A stretch of DNA of 24,062 nt from a virus, in IMG/VR virus record IMGVR_UViG_3300032246_001613, positions 1 through 24,062 of that record. The stretch is one strand, 5' to 3'. Below are positions 2,774 to 23,675 of this stretch, piece after piece; position 1 is the first letter of the stretch; every line of letters begins with the position of its first letter. The position numbers and the translations under genes were made by a program. The notes beneath the pieces were generated by a model, which ran no database searches, was not told the DNA's origin, and saw nothing but the letters and a program-made list of their open reading frames with translations.

Positions 2774-3100
2774 TTAAACTCGAAACGATTCACCGCATCC
2801 ACAGCGATCGCGTTCATTTGGATTGACAAAATCAAATCCTTCGTTGAGTCCATTGCGAACCCAATCTATAGTTAGCCCGTCTAGGTAAGCCAAACTTTTT
2901 GCATCAACTAATACTATAAAATTTGGTTGGCCAAAATTAGTAACGCCTACTTCAGCTTCATACTTATCCACATATTCTATGGTGTATGCTAGTCCACTAC
3001 AGCCTGTAGTCCTTACACCTAACCGAATACCTACACCGTGGCCTCGCCGTTCTAGATTTTGTTTAATTTTTTTAGTGGCTGTTTCGGTTAAAGTAATCAT
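2774..3100 (-). CDS. iscA: A-type iron-sulfur carrier protein (IscA/HesB family)
   Basis: This 108-residue protein has the full length and the three ligand cysteines of A-type carriers: C34 in T-T-G-C-S-G, and C100 and C102 in the C-terminal C-G-C-G-E-S-F. These proteins receive Fe-S clusters (or iron) and pass them to apo-proteins in the cytoplasm. The ATG overlaps the stop of the 2OG oxygenase gene by 4 nt (ATGA), so the two are translationally coupled. It is the last gene of the iscU - oxygenase - iscA set. HesB/IscA-like genes are known from marine T4-like phages. Which of IscA, SufA or ErpA it resembles most cannot be settled here. Confidence 0.93.
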   Translation of the reverse strand: MITLTETATKKIKQNLERRGHGVGIRLGVRTTGCSGLAYTIEYVDKYEAEVGVTNFGQPNFIVLVDAKSLAYLDGLTIDWVRNGLNEGFDFVNPNERDRCGCGESFRV

Positions 3101-3717
3101 AAAATTATCAATTCTTCAGGGCCGCCTTTGCCTAAAGTACCCTTGACAAAATAGTTAAAAGCCAAACAATATCGTGTGCTGTCAGATCGATTAGTTTCTG
3201 CTCTGTGAAACAAATTACTAGGAAATATCAGTATTTGTCCTTCTTCTGGAGTAACTCTGAAAGTTTTAGAGTTGAATGAATTGTATTCCTTGACACCAAT
3301 ATCAAGCATACCTAATTGCAAGTTATCGTTGGATTTTTGAAAAACCAAATCCCCAGAGTTAGGAGTTACTTCAATATACAATACTCCGCTGATCAGAGAA
3401 TTGATATGAAAGTGTGCAAAATTATAGTCACCCGGAGGATGTTCCATTATCCAGGAGTTTTTTAAAACTAAATCCACTCCATCAGCAGGACTGTAAATTT
3501 TATGCCCAAAGTCTTGAACATGCTTGTCTACTGTTTTTCTTAGATCTTCCAAACCAGGTTCGTTTAGAATATATTTGTTGACAGATATGTTAGCACTGCC
3601 GCCGTCTATTCTTTCAAATTGAATTTGTTTGACTATGTCTTTGACTGTGTTGGTGATAACAATTTCACTAGAATATAACGGTATTGGAAACAAAGATGCT
3701 AATTTTGTTTTATCCAT
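3097..3717 (-). CDS. Putative 2-oxoglutarate/Fe(II) oxygenase
   Basis: This 206-residue protein fits the phage 2OG-Fe(II) oxygenase family 5 pattern. A histidine pair H102-x-H104 comes before the S-G-V-L-Y-I strand. G-D-L-V-F follows, then E-G-Q-I-L-I-F-P-S with a distal H171 and R182, which would bind 2-oxoglutarate. Such enzymes hydroxylate or oxidise proteins, sugars or small molecules using Fe(II) and O2. The substrate is unknown. The gene overlaps iscU upstream by 8 nt and iscA downstream by 4 nt, so it is embedded in the iron-sulfur operon. That placement suggests a link to iron supply or sensing, or to modification of an operon partner, but this is inference. Confidence 0.8.
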   Translation of the reverse strand: MDKTKLASLFPIPLYSSEIVITNTVKDIVKQIQFERIDGGSANISVNKYILNEPGLEDLRKTVDKHVQDFGHKIYSPADGVDLVLKNSWIMEHPPGDYNFAHFHINSLISGVLYIEVTPNSGDLVFQKSNDNLQLGMLDIGVKEYNSFNSKTFRVTPEEGQILIFPSNLFHRAETNRSDSTRYCLAFNYFVKGTLGKGGPEELIIL

Positions 3718-4090
3718 GCCTATCCTTGTAATCTTTTACAGCGGCCTTTATGGCATCTTCTGCTAGAATTGAACAATGTATCTTAACTGGAGGTAGTGCT
3801 AGTTCTTGGGCAATTTCGGAGTTTTTAAGATTGAGAGCATCATTAATGTGCATACCCTTAACCCACTCTGTAACCAACGAGCTACTGGCGATTGCTGAAC
3901 CACATCCATATGTCTTGAAACGAGCATCTCTAATAATACCATCTTCGTCTACCTTTATTTGTAGTTTCATAACGTCACCACAAGCAGGAGCACCGACCAT
4001 ACCTGTACCAACTGTTGGATCGTTTTTTTCGAACGATCCAACATTGCGGGGATTTTCGTAGTGGTCGATTACTTTATCGCTGTATGCCAT
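3710..4090 (-). CDS. iscU: Iron-sulfur cluster scaffold protein IscU
   Basis: A complete 126-residue IscU. All key residues are present: C37 and D39 in G-A-P-A-C-G-D, C63 in Y-G-C-G-S-A, and H105-C106 in K-I-H-C-S. IscU builds [2Fe-2S] clusters with the cysteine desulfurase IscS, which is not in this window and would have to come from the host. The stretch L-P-P-V-K at 99-103 is the known recognition motif for the Hsp70 HscA, so the protein looks able to use the host transfer chaperones. It is the first gene of iscU - oxygenase - iscA. There is no ribosome binding site; a late-type CATAAATA ends only 4 nt before the ATG. Confidence 0.95.
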   Translation of the reverse strand: MAYSDKVIDHYENPRNVGSFEKNDPTVGTGMVGAPACGDVMKLQIKVDEDGIIRDARFKTYGCGSAIASSSLVTEWVKGMHINDALNLKNSEIAQELALPPVKIHCSILAEDAIKAAVKDYKDRHG

Positions 4091-5939: not shown

Positions 5940-7040
5940 TTATAACGCTGGTAATTCGTCATAGTCTAATGAATCGCTCATTACTCCTATAACGTAGTTT
6001 GTGCTTTCACTTTCTTGTAGTGCTGTTTGTTTACTGCTTGTGTTAACGTGCTTGTTAAACCATGGGATAGGTGTAGACTTAGGAGCAGGGTTGTTGTACT
6101 TAATACCAATTTCCTTTAGTGCGCTCACTGCTGTATAGTCTACGAAGTCACGTAGAATGTTAGCGTTTAATCCAATTACAGGACCTAGTTTAAACAAATA
6201 GCTGGCCCATTCTTTTTCTTCGCGTATAACATCCATATACAAATTATACACTTCTTGTTCGCATTCTGCTTTCACTTCGGCGAAACGAGAATCTTCCTTG
6301 ACAACCTGATTAATCAAATAAGCTGTCCAACCTTTGTGTAGCAGTTCGTCTTGTAGAATCAAACTGATAATGTTGCCGTTACCGATAAAGATTTTATTCT
6401 CCACCATGGCCAAGCTGGTGGCAAAACTCACCATGAACCTGAACGCTTCTAGTGCATAACTAGCGTGTAGTGCCATATAAATTGCTTTGATATGTGTACG
6501 TTCGTTGATCTTTTCGCCTGCTTCTTTACGACAGTTAATCAGATGTAATGCATCATAATAATCGCCTACACTTGATGCCATGTCTACTATTTCTTTAGTG
6601 TCATGGATAGTATTAAAAACTTCTTTAGGCACATTATAGATGTTACGAATAATATGACTGTAACTACGACTATGAATATTAGTTTCAAAGAATGTCCAAT
6701 TGTATACTAGTGCTTCTAGTTCTGGCAAACTTACTACCGGAGTAAAGATTTGGCTTGGGCCGCGTCCTTGCAAACTGTCAAGAGCAGTTTGGCGGAGCAA
6801 GTTACTAGTGAAGATATGTTTAACTGCATCAGATGCATCCTTAAAGTCGCTGGCATCTTTGCTAAGACTGATTTCTTCAGGTACCCAGAAAAAGCCACGT
6901 GCAGTAGTTTCGAAGTCTGCAATCTTTTTGTACTTAACTTCTTCAAAACGCTGGATGGTAACTGGGCCAGCTGGATCTAGAAACATCTTACGATTCAAGT
7001 AGTCTGTCTTTGTGTGTAAATTATATTGTTGTTTGCTCAT
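5940..7040 (-). CDS. nrdB: Class I ribonucleotide reductase small subunit NrdB
   Basis: This 366-residue beta subunit makes and holds the diiron-tyrosyl radical cofactor. By alignment to E. coli NrdB, the visible ligands are D88, E119, H123, E198, E232 and H235, with the radical tyrosine Y127 in H-S-R-S-Y. The C-terminus ends D-Y-D-E-L-P-A-L, the usual docking tail for NrdA. One oddity is the E119-H123 spacing, which is one residue longer than E115-H118 of E. coli; all other ligand spacings match exactly. The start overlaps the superoxide dismutase gene by 20 nt. Confidence 0.96.
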   Translation of the reverse strand: MSKQQYNLHTKTDYLNRKMFLDPAGPVTIQRFEEVKYKKIADFETTARGFFWVPEEISLSKDASDFKDASDAVKHIFTSNLLRQTALDSLQGRGPSQIFTPVVSLPELEALVYNWTFFETNIHSRSYSHIIRNIYNVPKEVFNTIHDTKEIVDMASSVGDYYDALHLINCRKEAGEKINERTHIKAIYMALHASYALEAFRFMVSFATSLAMVENKIFIGNGNIISLILQDELLHKGWTAYLINQVVKEDSRFAEVKAECEQEVYNLYMDVIREEKEWASYLFKLGPVIGLNANILRDFVDYTAVSALKEIGIKYNNPAPKSTPIPWFNKHVNTSSKQTALQESESTNYVIGVMSDSLDYDELPAL

Positions 7041-7572
7041 TAATATGTTCCCAATTCATTATCTTCCATTGATTCTTCAAATAACTTTTCTTTTCAGATT
7101 GATAGTCTAATGCCCATGCATGTTCCCACCAGTCTACTAAAACTACAATGTCTTTTTTAATTGCATGATTAGTTATAGTTTTAATCTTACCGTCCTTAGC
7201 AAGATAGACCCAACCACTGCCTTGTATAGCCATTGCTACTTTTTCAAACTCATCTTTGAACTTTGCAAATGTTTTGTAATGTGTGTTAATCAACTCTGCT
7301 ACTTTACCTGTTGGTTCATTACTATCTTTTGGATCCCGGTACTGCTGAAACAGGATATTATGTAAAAATACACCAGCTTCATTAAACACAGGATCACCTT
7401 CGCCTGCATTATAACGTTTGGCATACGTCTTGGCAAGATGTTCATAATGATATTCTAAGGTCGCCTTAGAGATAGCAGGATTCAAATCATTCATACCATA
7501 TGGTAGAGCATCTATTTTTAGTGATGCTGGTCTACCTTCAGTGATGAATTGTCTAATAAAACTGTACGTCAT
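7021..7572 (-). CDS. Iron/manganese superoxide dismutase
   Basis: A 183-residue Fe/Mn SOD with metal ligands H42 (E-Y-H-Y), H71 (F-L-H-N), D147 and H151 (D-W-W-E-H-A-W), and the conserved G-S-G-W core at 118-121. It converts superoxide to O2 and H2O2 in the cytoplasm. The usual second histidine cluster after H42 (H-H in E. coli) is replaced by L46-A47. By alignment, H136 falls where MnSOD has Gln146, resembling the His-type SOD subfamilies. The ATG overlaps the nrdA stop by 4 nt and the gene overlaps nrdB, so it is a built-in part of the reductase operon. A role protecting the radical cofactor, or managing its metal, is inferred. Confidence 0.92.
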   Translation of the reverse strand: MTYSFIRQFITEGRPASLKIDALPYGMNDLNPAISKATLEYHYEHLAKTYAKRYNAGEGDPVFNEAGVFLHNILFQQYRDPKDSNEPTGKVAELINTHYKTFAKFKDEFEKVAMAIQGSGWVYLAKDGKIKTITNHAIKKDIVVLVDWWEHAWALDYQSEKKSYLKNQWKIMNWEHINEQTTI

Positions 7573-9911
7573 AATTTACACGACTCACAATCATCTTCTA
7601 GATCATCATATTGATAACCGTTAATCTGAACTCCGTTAATTTGTGTCTGTTCAGGCGCTATTTCGGCAACTTGTTTACTACCTTGTTTATTAATCAAACT
7701 GTAGTAGAACGTTTTTAATCCCCACAACTGTGCTTGCATCAAGTTCTTAGCAATCAACGTAGTTGGAACTTTACGATCTGCAAAGTGCGCTGGATTATAG
7801 AAAGTGTTTGTACTAATACTTTGATCAACGTAGGCGGCCAAGACTGCACTTGTTTTTAAATAACCGTCGCAGTTTTTTTGATCCCACATAAGTTGATATT
7901 TGTTTTTAAGTTTATGATACTCAGGAACAACTTGTACAAACGATCCTGCTTTTGATTCCTTAACACTGATAAGGCTCATAGGCATTTCAATTCCATTAGT
8001 GCTGTTTATAACAACACTACTGCTTTCGACTGGCGCAATAGCCATTAGTGTAGCATTGCGAACTCCGTACTGTTTCATGTTAGTACGTAATGTCTCCCAA
8101 TCAAGTTCTGGTGTAAAGTCTGCTAGTTCGTTAGCACCTTTGGCACGTAGTTCCCAAGGGAAGGTGCCTTGTCCGTAGCGTGTCTTCTCACTATGTAAGC
8201 AAGCGCCACGTTCTTTGGCTAATTCAACTGTTGCTTCCGTTAGGTAAAATGCCTGATGTTCCATCCAACTCTTAACATCTTGTAGTGCGTCTTTGTCGCC
8301 GTACTTGAGTCCGCGCTTGGCATGCCAGTAGGCTAGATTAGTAACACCAATACCTAATGGTTGTATTTCATCATTGCTCAGCTTAGACTGTATAGATAGG
8401 AAGTCTTGGTAATCAAGTATGTTGCATAGACTACGCTGTAAAATGCGGCAAGCACGGCGCATGTCTTCTGGATTACGGAATGCTCCCCAGTTGATCGAGC
8501 CGAGTGTGCAAAGAGCAATGCGGCCATCAGCATCATCAAGACGCTTAAAAGATTTAGTAGGTAATAGGATTTCACAGCATAAGTTACTTTGATAAATTGT
8601 GTGGTACTCAGGATCGAATGGTCCTTGATTCATTACGTTGTCGATAAACACTAGATAGATACGTCCTGTATCAGTACGCTCTTTCAGTATGCCTGATTTG
8701 AATACTTCTTCAGCACTCATAGTCTTGGTACGTAAGTCTTTACGTTTTTCATATTTGACATATAGCTGTTCAAATAGTGCAGTATCTTTATAAAATGCTT
8801 CGTACAAGTCTGGAACTTCGTTTGGGTCAAAGAAAGTTATAGCTTCCTTATTTCGAAATCGTCTCCAGAAGAAGGCAGACAATACCACTCCATAGTCCAT
8901 ATGTCGAACCCTAGTTTCTTCTGTTCCTTGGTTATTCTTAAGAACAATAAGGTCATCAAACTGATGATGCCAAATGGGATAAAATACAGTAGCACTTGCA
9001 TTGCGTATGCCTCCTTGACTACAACTACGTAAGTCGCCAAACCATTTCTTTAAGAATGGTATCATACCAGTATGCATGATCTCTCCGCCACGGATAGGAC
9101 TACCTAGTGGACGTAAGCGACCAATTTCTAAACCAATGCCAGCACGTTTACTGGCATACTTGGCCATCATCTCGCCAGAGGCAAAAATGGAATCCAAATC
9201 ATCATCACTACGAATAAGAACGCAACTACTAAATTGCTTAGTAGGAGTTCCAAGACCAGCCAAAACGGGAGTAGCCAAAGTAAACAAACCATCTGAAGCG
9301 GCATTGTAATACTCTTTAATAAAACGCATCCTAGCACTGTTAGGTTCTTCTTTGTGGAACACAGTAGCGGCCGCGACCATATATCTAATTTGTGGAGTTT
9401 CATAAATTTCCTTTGTGGCACGATTACGCACCAAGTATTTTTCAATCAACTGCTCAATTGCCGCGTAACCATACTGTTCATCTTTTTCATGATCCAGCAT
9501 ATCATCCATTCGATTCCAGTCGTCTTCGCTATACCATTCTAATAGCTCTGGAGTATATAATCCTATATCAACATTTCGTTTCACAATAGAAAAAAGGCTT
9601 GGAGGTGTGTATGTACCGTACACATCTTTACGAAGCATACTCAATCGTTGCTTGCCAGCTACATATTGGTAATTGGTATGTCCTACGTCTGGGTTCTGCT
9701 CGACGTCTATAAGATCTACTATAGCCCTTAAAGTGATGCCATCGATTTCTGTTGTAGTTATGCCGTCATAGAAATGTAGCTGAGCTTTGATCTCTATCAT
9801 TGATTGGCTAACGTCTGCAATGCCTTGGCACACCTTAGCCACTTGCGCTTGCCATTTTTCAATATGTAATGGCTCTTTATTTCCGCTTCTTTTGATTACT
9901 GTAATGTTCAT
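7569..9911 (-). CDS. nrdA: Class I ribonucleotide reductase large subunit NrdA
   Basis: This 780-residue alpha subunit reduces ribonucleoside diphosphates to deoxy forms for phage DNA synthesis. An ATP-cone regulatory domain covers about residues 1-90. The catalytic set is visible: C230 (F-S-S-C), N443-x-C445-x-E447 (S-N-L-C-C-E), C468 (L-C-T-L-G-S), and the radical-path pair Y-Y in K-T-F-Y-Y near the end. The C-terminal C-E-S-C-K-L is the shuttle pair reduced by glutaredoxin. An in-frame TTG at 9929 would add six residues, but I choose the ATG at 9911 because the protein then starts M-N-I-T-V-I-K-R as usual. It heads the operon nrdA - sod - nrdB - grx. Confidence 0.95.
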   Translation of the reverse strand: MNITVIKRSGNKEPLHIEKWQAQVAKVCQGIADVSQSMIEIKAQLHFYDGITTTEIDGITLRAIVDLIDVEQNPDVGHTNYQYVAGKQRLSMLRKDVYGTYTPPSLFSIVKRNVDIGLYTPELLEWYSEDDWNRMDDMLDHEKDEQYGYAAIEQLIEKYLVRNRATKEIYETPQIRYMVAAATVFHKEEPNSARMRFIKEYYNAASDGLFTLATPVLAGLGTPTKQFSSCVLIRSDDDLDSIFASGEMMAKYASKRAGIGLEIGRLRPLGSPIRGGEIMHTGMIPFLKKWFGDLRSCSQGGIRNASATVFYPIWHHQFDDLIVLKNNQGTEETRVRHMDYGVVLSAFFWRRFRNKEAITFFDPNEVPDLYEAFYKDTALFEQLYVKYEKRKDLRTKTMSAEEVFKSGILKERTDTGRIYLVFIDNVMNQGPFDPEYHTIYQSNLCCEILLPTKSFKRLDDADGRIALCTLGSINWGAFRNPEDMRRACRILQRSLCNILDYQDFLSIQSKLSNDEIQPLGIGVTNLAYWHAKRGLKYGDKDALQDVKSWMEHQAFYLTEATVELAKERGACLHSEKTRYGQGTFPWELRAKGANELADFTPELDWETLRTNMKQYGVRNATLMAIAPVESSSVVINSTNGIEMPMSLISVKESKAGSFVQVVPEYHKLKNKYQLMWDQKNCDGYLKTSAVLAAYVDQSISTNTFYNPAHFADRKVPTTLIAKNLMQAQLWGLKTFYYSLINKQGSKQVAEIAPEQTQINGVQINGYQYDDLEDDCESCKL

Positions 9912-9925
9912 TTCGTCCGCTTTAT

Positions 9926-9973
9926 ACAAGTTATAATGTGTAGGCAGTATTTAGTGGTTAGGTTATAACTTGT
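9926..9973. promoter_or_regulatory. 11-bp inverted repeat flanking the nrdA-proximal promoter
   Basis: ACAAGTTATAA (9926-9936) and TTATAACTTGT (9963-9973) are exact reverse complements separated by 26 bp. One arm overlaps the TTGACA -35 element and the other lies between the predicted start and the nrdA ATG. This is a plausible paired operator. The core AAGTTATAA also occurs just downstream of the lysis-cassette promoter at 2714-2722. Confidence 0.5.
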
Positions 9974-17997: not shown

Positions 17998-18924
17998 TTA
18001 TAGGGCTAATTTTTGGGAGATAGCCTTAAACCAGTCTATGCTACCTTCTTTGAGAAAACGCTCGGGATACTTCTTCTGCATATCGCCCTTAAACTGTGCT
18101 AGACGTGGGTTATCTATGCCTTGTGGTATATGGGTTAAAATACGATCTACTGTGGCCAACCAGTCTTGGTTTGCTTGTGGGTTAGCAAATAAATGCTGTG
18201 CTATTTTGTGTATGTCACGTTCTACTACTTCGCCGTTGGCACGATTCTTCAATGAACCACCCATGCCATAGTAAAGGAAAGTACGCTCTAAATGATTAGG
18301 CACACTGTTAGCTAGACTGGCAAGGGCAAACTGCTGATCCTGTCCGTCCCATTCGTAATCTTTGGCGTAATCATGTTCATGATGTTTAACTGTTGTAGCC
18401 GCGTGTTCTGTAGTTGGAAAGTCTACTTGATAGTATGTAGGTAAACTAGTGCCCAGCGCAGGTACATCTACTTGTTCACCTGATGGTATACCCAAATGTA
18501 CTTGTTCGCCTGTTTGAGTAACTGCTTCAAATTGCTTTTTAAGATACTGTGCAAATGCCATACGTATTTGCCCATCATCGGCATTGGCTTCCAGTCCTAG
18601 TTTAGGAGCAACTTCTTTACTGCTGATATGGATATCAATATCGCCTGCGTCTTTTTTAACACTGCCTAATTTATAGTATGGATGGCTCTGATGCCAACTG
18701 CCAGCACTGCCGCTGGTCCAATGTCCTTTAGTACCTAATGCATTTAATACAGGCTGAATTTGTTTAACTATGGTTTCATACTGGCCACGTGGAATACGCA
18801 CGATTACACCGCGGATCATTTCAGGCTTGATTTGTTTCTTTGGCTTGGCACTAGCACCTAAACGTTCTGCGTTTAATTGTTCGATACCATACAAGCCAGC
18901 TGGCTCTAGTGCAAAACCACTCAT
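17998..18924 (-). CDS. Nucleotidyltransferase-fold protein (second in the window)
   Basis: This 308-residue protein carries a nucleotidyltransferase-like signature: T-S71-G72-S73-A-G-S-W, then a spaced D-A-G-D95-I-D97-I-H-I, and a third acidic position near D168 in Y-Y-Q-V-D-F-P. This is similar in logic to the nucleotidyltransferase at 15715-16416 but not closely related by eye. The C-terminal ~110 residues are helical with several W/F-rich turns. It starts in a 4-nt overlap with the upstream 84-residue gene. Substrate and role are unknown. Confidence 0.62.
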   Translation of the reverse strand: MSGFALEPAGLYGIEQLNAERLGASAKPKKQIKPEMIRGVIVRIPRGQYETIVKQIQPVLNALGTKGHWTSGSAGSWHQSHPYYKLGSVKKDAGDIDIHISSKEVAPKLGLEANADDGQIRMAFAQYLKKQFEAVTQTGEQVHLGIPSGEQVDVPALGTSLPTYYQVDFPTTEHAATTVKHHEHDYAKDYEWDGQDQQFALASLANSVPNHLERTFLYYGMGGSLKNRANGEVVERDIHKIAQHLFANPQANQDWLATVDRILTHIPQGIDNPRLAQFKGDMQKKYPERFLKEGSIDWFKAISQKLAL

Positions 18925-20362: not shown

Positions 20363-20773
20363 TTAGCCTATTGCGTCTTGTTCAAACAAGTCAGGATGCT
20401 CTTTACCCCAGTTACGCATGATAATGGCGGCTTGTGCATTAGCTTCATTTTCTTGTGGACTACCAGTTGCACCTGCATTTTCATCTACTAACTGATCTTG
20501 TAAGTCTTGTTTGTAATGTACAAGCTCATGTGCCAATGTACGACACACATCCATGATGTGACGATTCTTTACAGTGACATCAATATGTTTTTCGCCTGGC
20601 ATGTATCCGCCAAAGCTCTTACGGTCAACACTTGTGTTACTGTCAAATATAAAATCAAACTTTGGTAGTGTTTTTAATTCTAATGACTCGGCCGCAAAAC
20701 GCACAAACTCATGTAGTATTTTAAATGTACTACGCTTGTCTAAACTTTCAGTTAGTATCTGTGTTACTTTCAT
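20363..20773 (-). CDS. Zinc metallopeptidase-like protein with capsid-targeting-like leader
   Basis: This 136-residue protein has a clear H-E-L-V-H zinc motif (T-L-A-H-E-L-V-H-Y-K-Q-D) near 84-95 and a downstream E-N-E-A-N-A-Q-A-A that can supply the third ligand, as in gluzincin-type peptidases. It begins M-K-V-T-Q-I-L-T-E-S-L, an exact fit to M-x-x-x-[EQ]-[LIF]-[LIV]-x-E, and L-T-E is an ideal prohead-protease site. It may be packed in the head and injected to cut a host protein, or may act in assembly. It overlaps the upstream gene by 4 nt. Confidence 0.75.
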   Translation of the reverse strand: MKVTQILTESLDKRSTFKILHEFVRFAAESLELKTLPKFDFIFDSNTSVDRKSFGGYMPGEKHIDVTVKNRHIMDVCRTLAHELVHYKQDLQDQLVDENAGATGSPQENEANAQAAIIMRNWGKEHPDLFEQDAIG

Positions 20774-21159
20774 ACGCCGTATTTGTTACGTTTAATTTTA
20801 GCTACTGGACTTGTTGTCATTGTGCCGCTGGCTTCTCTACTTTTATCGTCTGCAACTCGTGTGCCTTTAACGCCCATTAGTTTATCTGCCATCTTGACTA
20901 CTTCTTCGTCTTCAGGAGTAAAACCAACAATGGTCAAGTTTTCAGCCCAACCACTTTCTTGTTCAAAATCTACATGTCCAGCCGCATCTGCACGGGCGGC
21001 CGCTATGGCTAGTCCATAACGATACTGCATATACGGATCAGTATTACGTAGTTGACGTTGTACCCAAACACCAGGCAAAGCCGCATCTACATCGGCACCA
21101 ATGCCAACAAACGATCCGTGTGCTTTTGCGCCTTCAGGTAAGAATTCTTTTGCTCTCAT
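20770..21159 (-). CDS. Conserved phage protein with capsid-targeting-like leader
   Basis: I start this gene at the ATG 21159, giving 129 residues that begin M-R-A-K-E-F-L-P-E-G-A; an upstream in-frame ATG at 21195 lies across the promoter. The first nine residues fit the shared leader and L-P-E-G fits the T4 protease rule. The body contains P-G-V-W-V-Q-R-Q-L-R-N-T-D-P-Y-M-Q-Y-R-Y-G-L-A and ends basic. I recall similar proteins in T4-like marine phages, none with a known role. CTAAATA ends 5 nt before the ATG, so the mRNA should be leaderless. Confidence 0.72.
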   Translation of the reverse strand: MRAKEFLPEGAKAHGSFVGIGADVDAALPGVWVQRQLRNTDPYMQYRYGLAIAAARADAAGHVDFEQESGWAENLTIVGFTPEDEEVVKMADKLMGVKGTRVADDKSREASGTMTTSPVAKIKRNKYGV

Positions 21160-21164
21160 ATCTA

Positions 21165-21177
21165 TATTTAGTAAATA
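21165..21177. promoter_or_regulatory. Palindromic bidirectional late promoter
   Basis: TATTTAGTAAATA is a perfect palindrome. On the minus strand it gives CTAAATA, 5 nt before the ATG at 21159. On the plus strand it gives GTAAATA, 7 nt before the ALAS ATG at 21185. The two genes start only 25 nt apart and neither has a ribosome binding site, so both transcripts would be leaderless or nearly so. Confidence 0.6.
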
Positions 21178-21184
21178 GCATATT

Positions 21185-22399
21185 ATGATAAACAAAGAAC
21201 CCTTTCAAAAACTAATTACAGAACTTAAAGAAAACGGCAAATATCGTGTGTTCAACGATATTGTACGTGAAAACGGCAAGTTTCCCCAAGCTATCTGGTA
21301 CGGGCCTTACAACATTAAAAACATTGTAAACTGGTGCAGTAATGATTACTTGGGCATGGGTCAACACAAAGTTGTCTTAGATGCCATGCACACAGCACTG
21401 GATCATACTGGAAGCGGTTCTGGTGGTACACGTAACATCGGCGGCACTAGCCATTATCACGTGGCCTTAGAGCATGAGCTGGCAGGATTACATAAAAAAG
21501 AAAAAGCAGTATTGTTTAGCAGTGCTTATGTGGCCAACGAATGGACACTAATTGCCTTAGCTAAGATTATTCCAAACATTGAGTTTATTAGTGATGCTAA
21601 CAATCATAACAGTATCATTGTAGGCATAAGTCATAGTAAGGCTAAGAAAGTTGTATTCAAACACAACGACTTAGAAGATCTAGAACAGAAACTTAAGATT
21701 AGTTTTGCACAAGGCAATACACCCTGTGTAGTATTTGAAAGTGTATACAGTATGGACGGAGATTGTGGCCATATCAAAGAGATATGTAAGTTAGCTGAAA
21801 AGTACAAGGCAATTACCTATATTGATGAAGTACATGCTGTAGGCTTGTACGGTGCTACTGGCGGCGGCAAAGTAGAAGAGCTTGGACTTGAAAACAAAAT
21901 TGACATAGTCAATGGTACCTTGGGAAAGGCCTATGGAGTTCAAGGAGGCTATATTGCCTGTGATAAGATTGTAGCTGATGCTATCCGTAGCGTGGCCGCG
22001 GGCTTTATCTTTACAACTAGCATGAGTCCAGTTAGTTGTGCTGGTGCTATGGCGGCCGTTAAGTATCTTAAGGATCATCCTGAGATCCGTGAAAAACATC
22101 AAGAACGTGCTCGTAAACTAAAACATCGTTTGGGTGTTGCTGGAATTTCTGTTATGGATTGTGCTACAGAACACATTGTTCCTGTACTTGTTGGTGATGC
22201 TAAAAAGTGTAAAGCAATGAGCGATGCACTATTAAATGACTTTAACATCTATGTACAGCCAATCAATTATCCTACAGTTGATGTGGGAACGGAGCGGTTG
22301 CGTTTTGCACCTACTCCGTTTCATGATGATGGTATGATTGAAGACTTGGTTAAAGCTCTGGTGGCTGTGTCACAACCGGGCTATCTGAAGTTAACTTAA
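21185..22399 (+). CDS. hemA: 5-aminolevulinate synthase (ALAS)
   Basis: A complete 404-residue ALAS, which condenses glycine and succinyl-CoA to 5-aminolevulinate, the first step of heme and other tetrapyrroles in alphaproteobacteria. Signature blocks in order: [10 protein letters not shown] (50-59), [14 protein letters not shown] (76-89), E-S-V-Y-S-M-D-G-D, the PLP-phosphate/pyridine site D214-E-V-H-A-V-G, and the Schiff-base lysine K248 in G-T-L-G-K-A-Y-G, the same number as in Rhodobacter ALAS. The related KBL/BioF enzymes lack this combination. The last 50 nt overlap the convergent cupin gene. No ribosome binding site is seen. Confidence 0.93.
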
Positions 22400-22739
22400 A
22401 TATATCGTTTTCTATTTCAGCAGTACCTGATTCAAATATCATACAGTCTGTTGTCAATGCTTCTAATTGATGCGGCTGTAATGGTTGGCTAGTAAATACA
22501 TCACCTTCCTTTAGCATACGCTGTTTTGCTTCGCCGGTAGTTACATCTATCCAGCGTACAGCAAAGTTACCAGAGTTAACAAACCAACTTTTAACTTTTA
22601 TTTTATTGAATAAGATCGGAGTTGTTGCTCCAACATGACTGAATACTAATATCTTACCACAATGAGTGTCTGTGCTTGCCCAAACAATTTCTGTGCCCCA
22701 TGGAGTTTCCACAGGGCCAGTTTTACGAATCGATGTCAT
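22350..22739 (-). CDS. Cupin-fold protein
   Basis: This 129-residue protein looks like a small single-domain cupin of the sugar-phosphate isomerase type. Beta strands and a central [18 protein letters not shown] match the second cupin motif, with the single H in place and the first motif weakly kept. The metal site may be incomplete, since the usual H-x-H pair is not visible. It has a strong AGGAGG site 8 nt before the ATG, preceded by extra TAGGA units. It converges on and overlaps the ALAS gene by 50 nt, so late mRNAs of the two would be antisense at the 3' ends. Confidence 0.75.
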
Positions 22740-22780: not shown

Positions 22781-22870
22781 TTATACAGGGCTATAAGGAT
22801 TTCTTGGACGATCGGTGCCATCGTCTTCAGGATAGACTGGATAGTCATTGGGATTAGTCGTCACTAGCAT
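22781..22870 (-). CDS. Possible small proline-rich protein (29 aa)
   Basis: ATG at 22870, inside the end of the nuclease gene, opens a 29-codon frame reading M-L-V-T-T-N-P-N-D-Y-P-V-Y-P-E-D-D-G-T-D. It is rich in P, D, Y and R and overlaps the nuclease stop by 17 nt. The composition is regular enough to be a real peptide, but there is no ribosome binding site and a rival 41-codon frame overlaps it (22723-22848). It may instead be a remnant of a longer tail lost by frameshift. Confidence 0.33.
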   Translation of the reverse strand: MLVTTNPNDYPVYPEDDGTDRPRNPYSPV

Positions 22871-23675
22871 TTGCGCCACACTTAGCACGTTTGGCTTTGG
22901 TCAATGCACCAAAGTCTACAGGCCATTCTGCACCAGGAGCTAGTTCTTTAGCGTTCTTAGGGAAAGCAAAGTTAATGCCAGCTGTCTTTTCAATTTGTGC
23001 AATTGGCATACGGAATGGAACTAAGTTGTTACCTAAGTTAGGATATGGTACAACATGCGGGAACGCCCATCCTGCAATTTCTCCTGTAGCTTGATTGATA
23101 ACAATCTTGTAGAAGCCGTGTGGTACAACTACACCCGCACCAATCTTCTTATCTGTAGCATCATACACACCGCCAGCGATGATGGTGAATGTTTGATTGC
23201 GTTGTACTGCCCAACCGCGAACTGAAGTTTCTAACAGTTTCCAAATGCCACGATTGAGTGAACCAGCTTGTGGGCTCATGTTGGTCATTAGGAAAGATTC
23301 AAACTCTACTTGTGGATCCCATGACAGGTCTCCGTCTGGAGCCATGTGTCCTTTATCGTAACCTGTAGCCGCATAGTCGTCTGGACGAGCGCCGTTTGGT
23401 ACACTTTGATCCGGAGCAAACGCATTAGTACGAGCAACACATCCTAGTGCATTAGGAGGAGTCAACGTATAAGCAACATAGTTTGGTAATTTAGCAGGAG
23501 CGTCATAAGCAACTAGATAAGCCTGACGGCAAATTGGTTGTAGTTGACGTGCTGTTTGTGCGAATCCATAAGGTTGATGAACAGCACAGGCTTGTACTGG
23601 ATTTGGAGCTCGTTGTGTCCAAGCATTAGCTAGTCCGCTAACGGCAATTAATAGGACGAATAATAGTTTTTGCAT
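22854..23675 (-). CDS. Secreted DNA/RNA non-specific endonuclease
   Basis: This 273-residue protein belongs to the Endonuclease_NS (Serratia nuclease/NUC1) family. The catalytic block is D107-K-G-H110-M-A-P, a D-[RK]-G-H variant with H110 as general base. The metal-binding N141 is in S-L-N-R-G-I-W-K-L-L-E. Residues 1-18 form a signal peptide (hydrophobic core, cut after A-N-A), so the enzyme is exported to the periplasm or outside. Four or more cysteines could form disulfides there. A GATAAATA late element lies ~27 nt upstream of the ATG. It may degrade DNA in the periplasm late in infection, from rival phages or the lysing cell. Confidence 0.9.
   Translation of the reverse strand: MQKLLFVLLIAVSGLANAWTQRAPNPVQACAVHQPYGFAQTARQLQPICRQAYLVAYDAPAKLPNYVAYTLTPPNALGCVARTNAFAPDQSVPNGARPDDYAATGYDKGHMAPDGDLSWDPQVEFESFLMTNMSPQAGSLNRGIWKLLETSVRGWAVQRNQTFTIIAGGVYDATDKKIGAGVVVPHGFYKIVINQATGEIAGWAFPHVVPYPNLGNNLVPFRMPIAQIEKTAGINFAFPKNAKELAPGAEWPVDFGALTKAKRAKCGANASDD

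Follow-up and report, generated by a model that had tools for sequence, protein, structure and literature searches.

An apparently working 5-aminolevulinate synthase (ALAS) gene, intact and maintained by selection, is carried by a freshwater phage of the jumbo type, known here from a 24-kb virus fragment of 24,062 nucleotides (hereafter, the window). Enzymatic activity is predicted from the sequence of the protein, and the mRNA of this gene (alaS) is predicted to be nearly leaderless, as it would start from its own conserved, palindromic promoter of the T4 late type (Table 1). The reading favored here, which we regard as fairly probable, joins a functional viral ALAS (vAlaS), a near-leaderless late message, the delivery of part of the heme to a heme oxygenase (HemO) and a ferredoxin-dependent bilin reductase (FDBR), and a beta- or gammaproteobacterial host that uses the C5 route.

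Table 1. Features annotated in the 24,062-nucleotide window.
Feature	Position	Strand	Evidence
alaS (vAlaS), 5-aminolevulinate synthase, complete, 404 aa, ATG start, PLP lysine K248	21185..22399	+	
T4-late-type -10 element TAAATA, 7 nt upstream of the ALAS start codon	21172..21177	+	
Inverted TAAATA (ATTTA on the + strand), partner half of the palindrome, 5 nt upstream of the divergent gene's start codon	21165..21170	-	pattern match 21157-21170
Small phage gene divergent from ALAS, ATG at 21159	20770..21159	-	no family match
Cysteine-dioxygenase-like protein; gene convergent with ALAS, with a 50-nt overlap at the ALAS 3' end	22350..22739	-	phrog_7851, E 5e-16
iscU, Fe-S scaffold	3710..4090	-	TIGR01999, 224 bits (cut-off 192)
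iscA-type Fe-S assembly protein	2774..3100	-	TIGR00049, over cut-off
NrdB, class I ribonucleotide reductase beta	5940..7040	-	PF00268
NrdA, ribonucleotide reductase alpha	7569..9929	-	PHROG 84, Pfam

The original prediction described a complete ALAS with its catalytic lysine at position 248, and both the open reading frame and the comparisons with known enzymes agree with it. In the NCBIfam profile search, the model TIGR01821 (5-aminolevulinate synthase) matched residues 6-396 with 558.4 bits, against a curated cut-off of 338.55 bits. The best matches among solved structures were the bacterial ALAS 7x98 (E 1e-127) and the Rhodobacter capsulatus ALAS 2bwn (E 1e-124), whose crystal structures, at ~52-53% identity, already span the window protein and share with it all tested catalytic and substrate residues. 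These residues, comprising the PLP Schiff-base lysine K248 and R21, N53, T82, N84, H141, D214, H217, T364 and R373 (window numbering) of the PLP, glycine and succinyl-CoA sites, are all present in the window copy and were invariant in 134/134 distinct viral sequences. The dN/dS values between the window gene and its nearest relatives ranged from 0.05 to 0.07 (~0.06), with a median of 0.069 over 200 pairs, which indicates strong purifying selection on the protein. The start codon is also credible, since the N-terminus MINKEPF, with close variants, is common to the viral relatives and aligns with bacterial ALAS. No PHROGs family was found for this protein.

It is hardly conceivable that the protein is instead another alpha-oxoamine synthase, of the KBL (glycine C-acetyltransferase), BioF, SPT or CqsA type, acting on a different acyl-CoA. 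These enzymes share the same fold family, and their models do match the window protein; however, every one of these matches fell below the cut-off of its own model and 240-400 bits under the ALAS score. Moreover, R21 and the residue accommodating succinyl-CoA (T83 in R. capsulatus numbering) are invariant, and the phylogenetic tree, in which a grouping with KBL or BioF had been proposed as an observation that would refute ALAS, placed the window protein with ALAS and left KBL and BioF as a far outgroup (outgroup branch 99). The identification as KBL or BioF was thus rejected by both profile scores and tree.

At least 584 contigs bearing ALAS relatives were found in IMG/VR. The tree contained 117 proteins, including viral rows from two viral scans (a close and a more distant set), 45 bacterial ALAS, and KBL/BioF. 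In this tree, 67 viral ALAS formed one clade (SH-aLRT 99) on a stem of 0.58 changes per site, excluding all 45 bacterial ALAS; three rows from viral contigs sat among bacteria or near the base. The best bacterial ALAS found in searches are ~58% identical to the phage enzyme. A phage-only clade with such a long stem points to an old ALAS shared by phages and evolving separately. Contamination by bacterial DNA was considered and rejected, given this clade, the virus record itself, and phage neighbors syntenic with phage contigs of 265 and 356 kb. Annotation of these neighbors likewise agrees with the earlier description of the gene as lying between phage genes.

This type of ALAS is not new, and agrees with the viral alaS (valaS) that Wegner et al. 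(2024) described from phages of marine and fresh waters (PMC11480375). These authors demonstrated that the CB_2 phage enzyme rescues an E. coli strain auxotrophic for 5-ALA and produces 5-ALA, and reported hemO and PcyA/X genes near valaS, including three-gene cassettes and active HemO/PcyA (PMC11480375). The window enzyme resembles those of CB_2 and TP6_1 in the reaction catalyzed, the conserved residues, the aquatic phage setting and the phage-only clade, and the valaS phages described there harbor hemO and a PcyA/X-type FDBR in a "broken cassette" (PMC11480375). To the prior work, the present analysis adds the linkage with iscU, the overlap of clpS and hemO, the late promoter and its distance from the start codon, and an affinity of iscU outside the alphaproteobacteria. 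Thus, the window copy mainly contributes scale and context, with one old phage ALAS lineage tightly linked to iscU and clpS-hemO-FDBR. Among annotated phage records, only KBL/BioF-like matches below 36% were retrieved, several of them from bacterial or unverified records.

In the literature, a missing heme-regulatory residue has been cited as a sign of escape from feedback. The window ALAS differs from the R. capsulatus ALAS 2bwn and from 7x98 in the lack of a His at position 342 and in a shorter C-terminal tail, and the His342/Cys400-type pair is equally absent from the vAlaS of CB_2 and TP6_1 (PMC11480375). The pair of His342 and C-terminal Cys, the latter being counted, loosely, whenever the tail had any Cys, was found in 0/134 viral and in 16/109 bacterial ALAS. 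Since it occurs in so few bacterial enzymes, its absence is the usual state and does not set phages apart, and the loss of this site as a phage adaptation is not supported.

A late-type promoter before ALAS had also been predicted, and the TAAATA element found there proved to be unusual and conserved in relatives. The distance between TAAATA and the start codon of ALAS is 4-8 nt in 87 of 128 distinct viral upstream regions, compared with 0/108 bacterial ones. Just upstream, an inverted ATTTA was observed in 69 of these 87 viral promoters (at 1-7 nt, with one exception), versus 7/112 background TAAATA sites. In two whole relatives, TAAATA is overall rarer than nearly all permutations of the same hexamer, and is enriched at two distances before genes, 4-7 nt and 16-30 nt. 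In addition, the 356-kb relative encodes a homologue of gp55 (E 5e-9 with T4 gp55 and 7e-14 with that of the SAR11 pelagiphage HTVC008M). Both marks of a T4-type late promoter were therefore found, namely a TAAATA core whose enrichment is confined to set distances upstream of genes, and gp55 in a relative, and they are those of the T4 late promoters themselves (TATAAATA, gp55). The spacing, on the other hand, distinguishes these phages from T4: TAAATA-N4-7-ATG is in excess in this phage group and in HTVC008M, whereas T4 presented 16 occurrences against 20 in the control, with no excess. The tested cyanophages displayed no clear excess of TAAATA near ATG over the control.

Transcription from gp55 promoters starts ~5 nt after the TAAATA box. 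With the box 7 nt before the ATG, the ALAS message would then begin ~0-3 nt from its start codon. Furthermore, the start codons of ALAS (21185) and of the divergent gene (21159) are separated by only 25 nt, too short a distance for a leader with a Shine-Dalgarno site on either side. Divergent leaderless pairs were considered as the rule at alaS and rejected, since a leaderless gene was found on the other side of ALAS in only 3/109 loci, though the palindrome itself is common. With the gene starts deposited for HTVC008M, TAAATA is found at a distance of 3-8 nt in 17 genes (exactly 5 nt in 12), and a Shine-Dalgarno-like site is present in 2/17; eight further genes have TAAATA 16-30 nt away, and such a site is present in 8/8. 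Examples of the two spacing classes can be seen at 21157-21187 of the window and at 18916/18943 of HTVC008M (KC465899).

It is moderately probable that aquatic T4-related phages and HTVC008M possess a large class of late genes with TAAATA-N4-8-ATG and leaderless or nearly leaderless messages, which would include alaS and the window iscU (TAAATA 4 nt before its ATG), along with a second class in which TAAATA at 16-30 nt is combined with a Shine-Dalgarno site. The start-codon promoters would sometimes be overlapping divergent pairs. A previous search for late promoters in pelagimyophages, which relied on methods developed for cyanophages, was unsuccessful (PMC7029224), a failure that the placement of TAAATA on the start codon could explain. 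In a literature search of partial coverage, no earlier report of such near-leaderless late promoters was found. If real, these messages would be general among a large group of phages, marine and freshwater, and would alter both the prediction of late genes and the view of how phages compete for host ribosomes.

The presence of IscU and IscA in the window, which had been reported from the reading frames, was confirmed by profile search, with the iscA-type protein scoring 133 bits against TIGR02011, under the cut-off of 151. Several larger phage contigs show the same order, iscU - nrdB/nrdA - ALAS. Two of these, of 265 kb (G006) and 356 kb (G007; L303-L318, L272-L274), carry ~30 tRNA genes each and can be taken as jumbo phages; their tRNA sets include tRNA-Glu (UUC), which vAlaS may also spare there. 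Rfam and tRNA scans of the 24-kb window gave no matches.

One ALAS over the cut-off was found in each of the 23 large relatives, together with iscU in 16/23 and hemO and FDBR in 15/23 each. In these 15, hemO and FDBR are adjacent and lie past iscU on the side away from ALAS, and iscU and the hemO-FDBR pair were both found in 15/15 relatives whose contigs are long enough to reach them. The absences of hemO, FDBR or iscU are explained by expected positions that fall off the contig (coordinates as read). Within the 24-kb window, neither hemO nor FDBR gave a match, and by synteny with the relatives the pair would be expected several kb beyond its left end, the distance from alaS to hemO-FDBR being about 25-33 kb in close relatives. 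Among more distant ALAS-bearing viral contigs, hemO was found in 11/15, and the ALAS contigs without hemO may be mere contig ends. Other phage tetrapyrrole genes are known from the hemO-pcyX and hemO-pebS cassettes of marine phages and from pelagiphage Mosig, whose hemO is distant (32%); in contrast to these cassettes, the annotated phage records gave no ALAS beyond KBL/BioF-like matches.

Upstream of the bilin genes, the order hsp20-clpS-hemO-FDBR was observed in 22 of the 23 loci read (e.g., L272:5442-9426), usually preceded by dnaK in the freshwater group. In several loci, the hemO start codon lies within the last part of clpS and has a good Shine-Dalgarno site. The main text of the viral alaS paper makes no mention of clpS (PMC11480375). 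Since clpS is also found in jumbo phages in which hemO was not detected, such as PA5oct, the neighborhood need not be functional, and the idea of ClpS as a heme-specific partner is weakened. Curli-type genes (CsgG, CsgB/CsgA-like) were also noted near hemO-FDBR in G006 (L277:5450-8957), and are likewise annotated in HTVC008M.

In the favored reading, an RNA polymerase of the gp55 type would start, in the late phase, at the TAAATA promoter 7 nt before the ALAS start codon, producing an almost leaderless mRNA from which vAlaS would keep up 5-ALA production late in infection. The extra heme would go in part to the linked heme oxygenase-bilin reductase pair and for the rest to host respiration. 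In a C5 host, vAlaS would make glutamyl-tRNA reductase dispensable for 5-ALA and so save glutamyl-tRNA, an advantage that the literature puts forward as a model. The earlier proposal that the phage raises heme or tetrapyrrole supply late in infection stands in part: with a real, maintained ALAS, a late-type promoter and an active homologue (PMC11480375), extra 5-ALA at this stage is a straightforward expectation from the sequence, but the proposal is incomplete, since the hemO and bilin reductase of the relatives suggest that part of the heme may become bilins rather than serve respiration. Aquatic phages with an entry enzyme of the tetrapyrrole pathway may sustain both heme and bilin synthesis in infected cells.

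A bilin branch as the main destination of vAlaS, leading from 5-ALA through heme and biliverdin (by HemO) to phycocyanobilin or phycoerythrobilin (by a PcyA/PcyX-like FDBR) for uses such as light sensing, buffering of the redox state or the release of iron, is conceivable but rather unlikely. The hemO-FDBR pair of every relative whose contig reaches it, its hemO in most of the more distant phages, and the known three-gene cassettes with active HemO/PcyA (PMC11480375) argue for it. However, alaS lies tens of kb from the pair in close relatives, has its own promoter while hemO is translationally coupled to clpS, so that the genes do not form one co-regulated unit, and some ALAS contigs lack hemO, though possibly only through contig ends. 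Far less probable is that the host is forced off the C5 route and onto the Shemin route, with phage ClpS aiding the Clp protease in removing host glutamyl-tRNA reductase and vAlaS taking over the supply of 5-ALA. The conserved hsp20-clpS-hemO-FDBR order and the clpS/hemO overlap would suit such a switch, as would two published properties of glutamyl-tRNA reductase, its being a substrate of Clp in Salmonella and chloroplasts and its binding to plant ClpS1 (PMC7966870), but in plants the reductase was degraded no more slowly when ClpS1 was missing (PMC7966870), and the clpS of jumbo phages such as PA5oct suggests that this gene may be just an old neighbor.

Regarding the host, the original prediction took ALAS as a pointer to an alphaproteobacterium, and proposed that, in a host with its own ALAS, the phage enzyme together with IscU/IscA would boost iron cofactors for respiration and for the phage ribonucleotide reductase, the oxygen-dependent reductase encoded by nrdB. 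We consider this doubtful. It is in keeping with the alphaproteobacterial type of the ALAS, with iscU, iscA, nrdA and nrdB all being in the window, with the TAAATA-near-ATG promoter class shared by the window iscU and alaS, and with the assignment of some valaS phages to alphaproteobacteria (PMC11480375). The phage TP6_1, by contrast, was assigned to a gammaproteobacterial host (PMC11480375, PMC7674155). Against the alphaproteobacterial reading, a phage-only, long-stemmed ALAS clade holds no host marker and says little about the present host. In the IscU tree, the phage clade (100/97) fell outside the alphaproteobacterial clade (93/92), among bacteria without ALAS; ALAS is absent from 39 of the 40 genomes whose IscU is nearest, and the sole exception falls in the alphaproteobacterial clade. 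The window NrdB is 63% identical to that of Xanthomonas phage X1, and its nearest relatives are those of Xanthomonas and Stenotrophomonas phages. The claim of an alphaproteobacterial host is thus unsupported, and these gene affinities suggest that a beta- or gammaproteobacterial host with the tRNA-Glu (C5) route is more likely, bearing in mind that the origin of a gene is weak evidence for the host that the origin of iscU need not be that of the present one, and that IscU is in any case uncommon in alphaproteobacteria. These findings are evidence that the host of a valaS phage need not be an alphaproteobacterium. The methanotroph marker pmoC gave no match in the relatives, nor in the control genomes, and so carries no information on the host.

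Other genes of the window were also noted. An iron/manganese superoxide dismutase-type protein is encoded between nrdB and nrdA (7021-7572, - strand), in which the usual metal-ligand motifs EYHY, FLHN and DWWEH are present by eye, and which has a homologue only in G008 among the relatives read. A 2OG-Fe(II) oxygenase gene (3097-3717, - strand) separates iscU from iscA, which adjoin in the relatives read. Next to ALAS, the cysteine-dioxygenase-like gene has homologues in 29 related viral loci, and a DNA/RNA non-specific endonuclease (22854-23675, - strand), found in 33 related viral loci around ALAS, has an apparent signal peptide, MQKLLFVLLIAVSGLANA, and is possibly exported.
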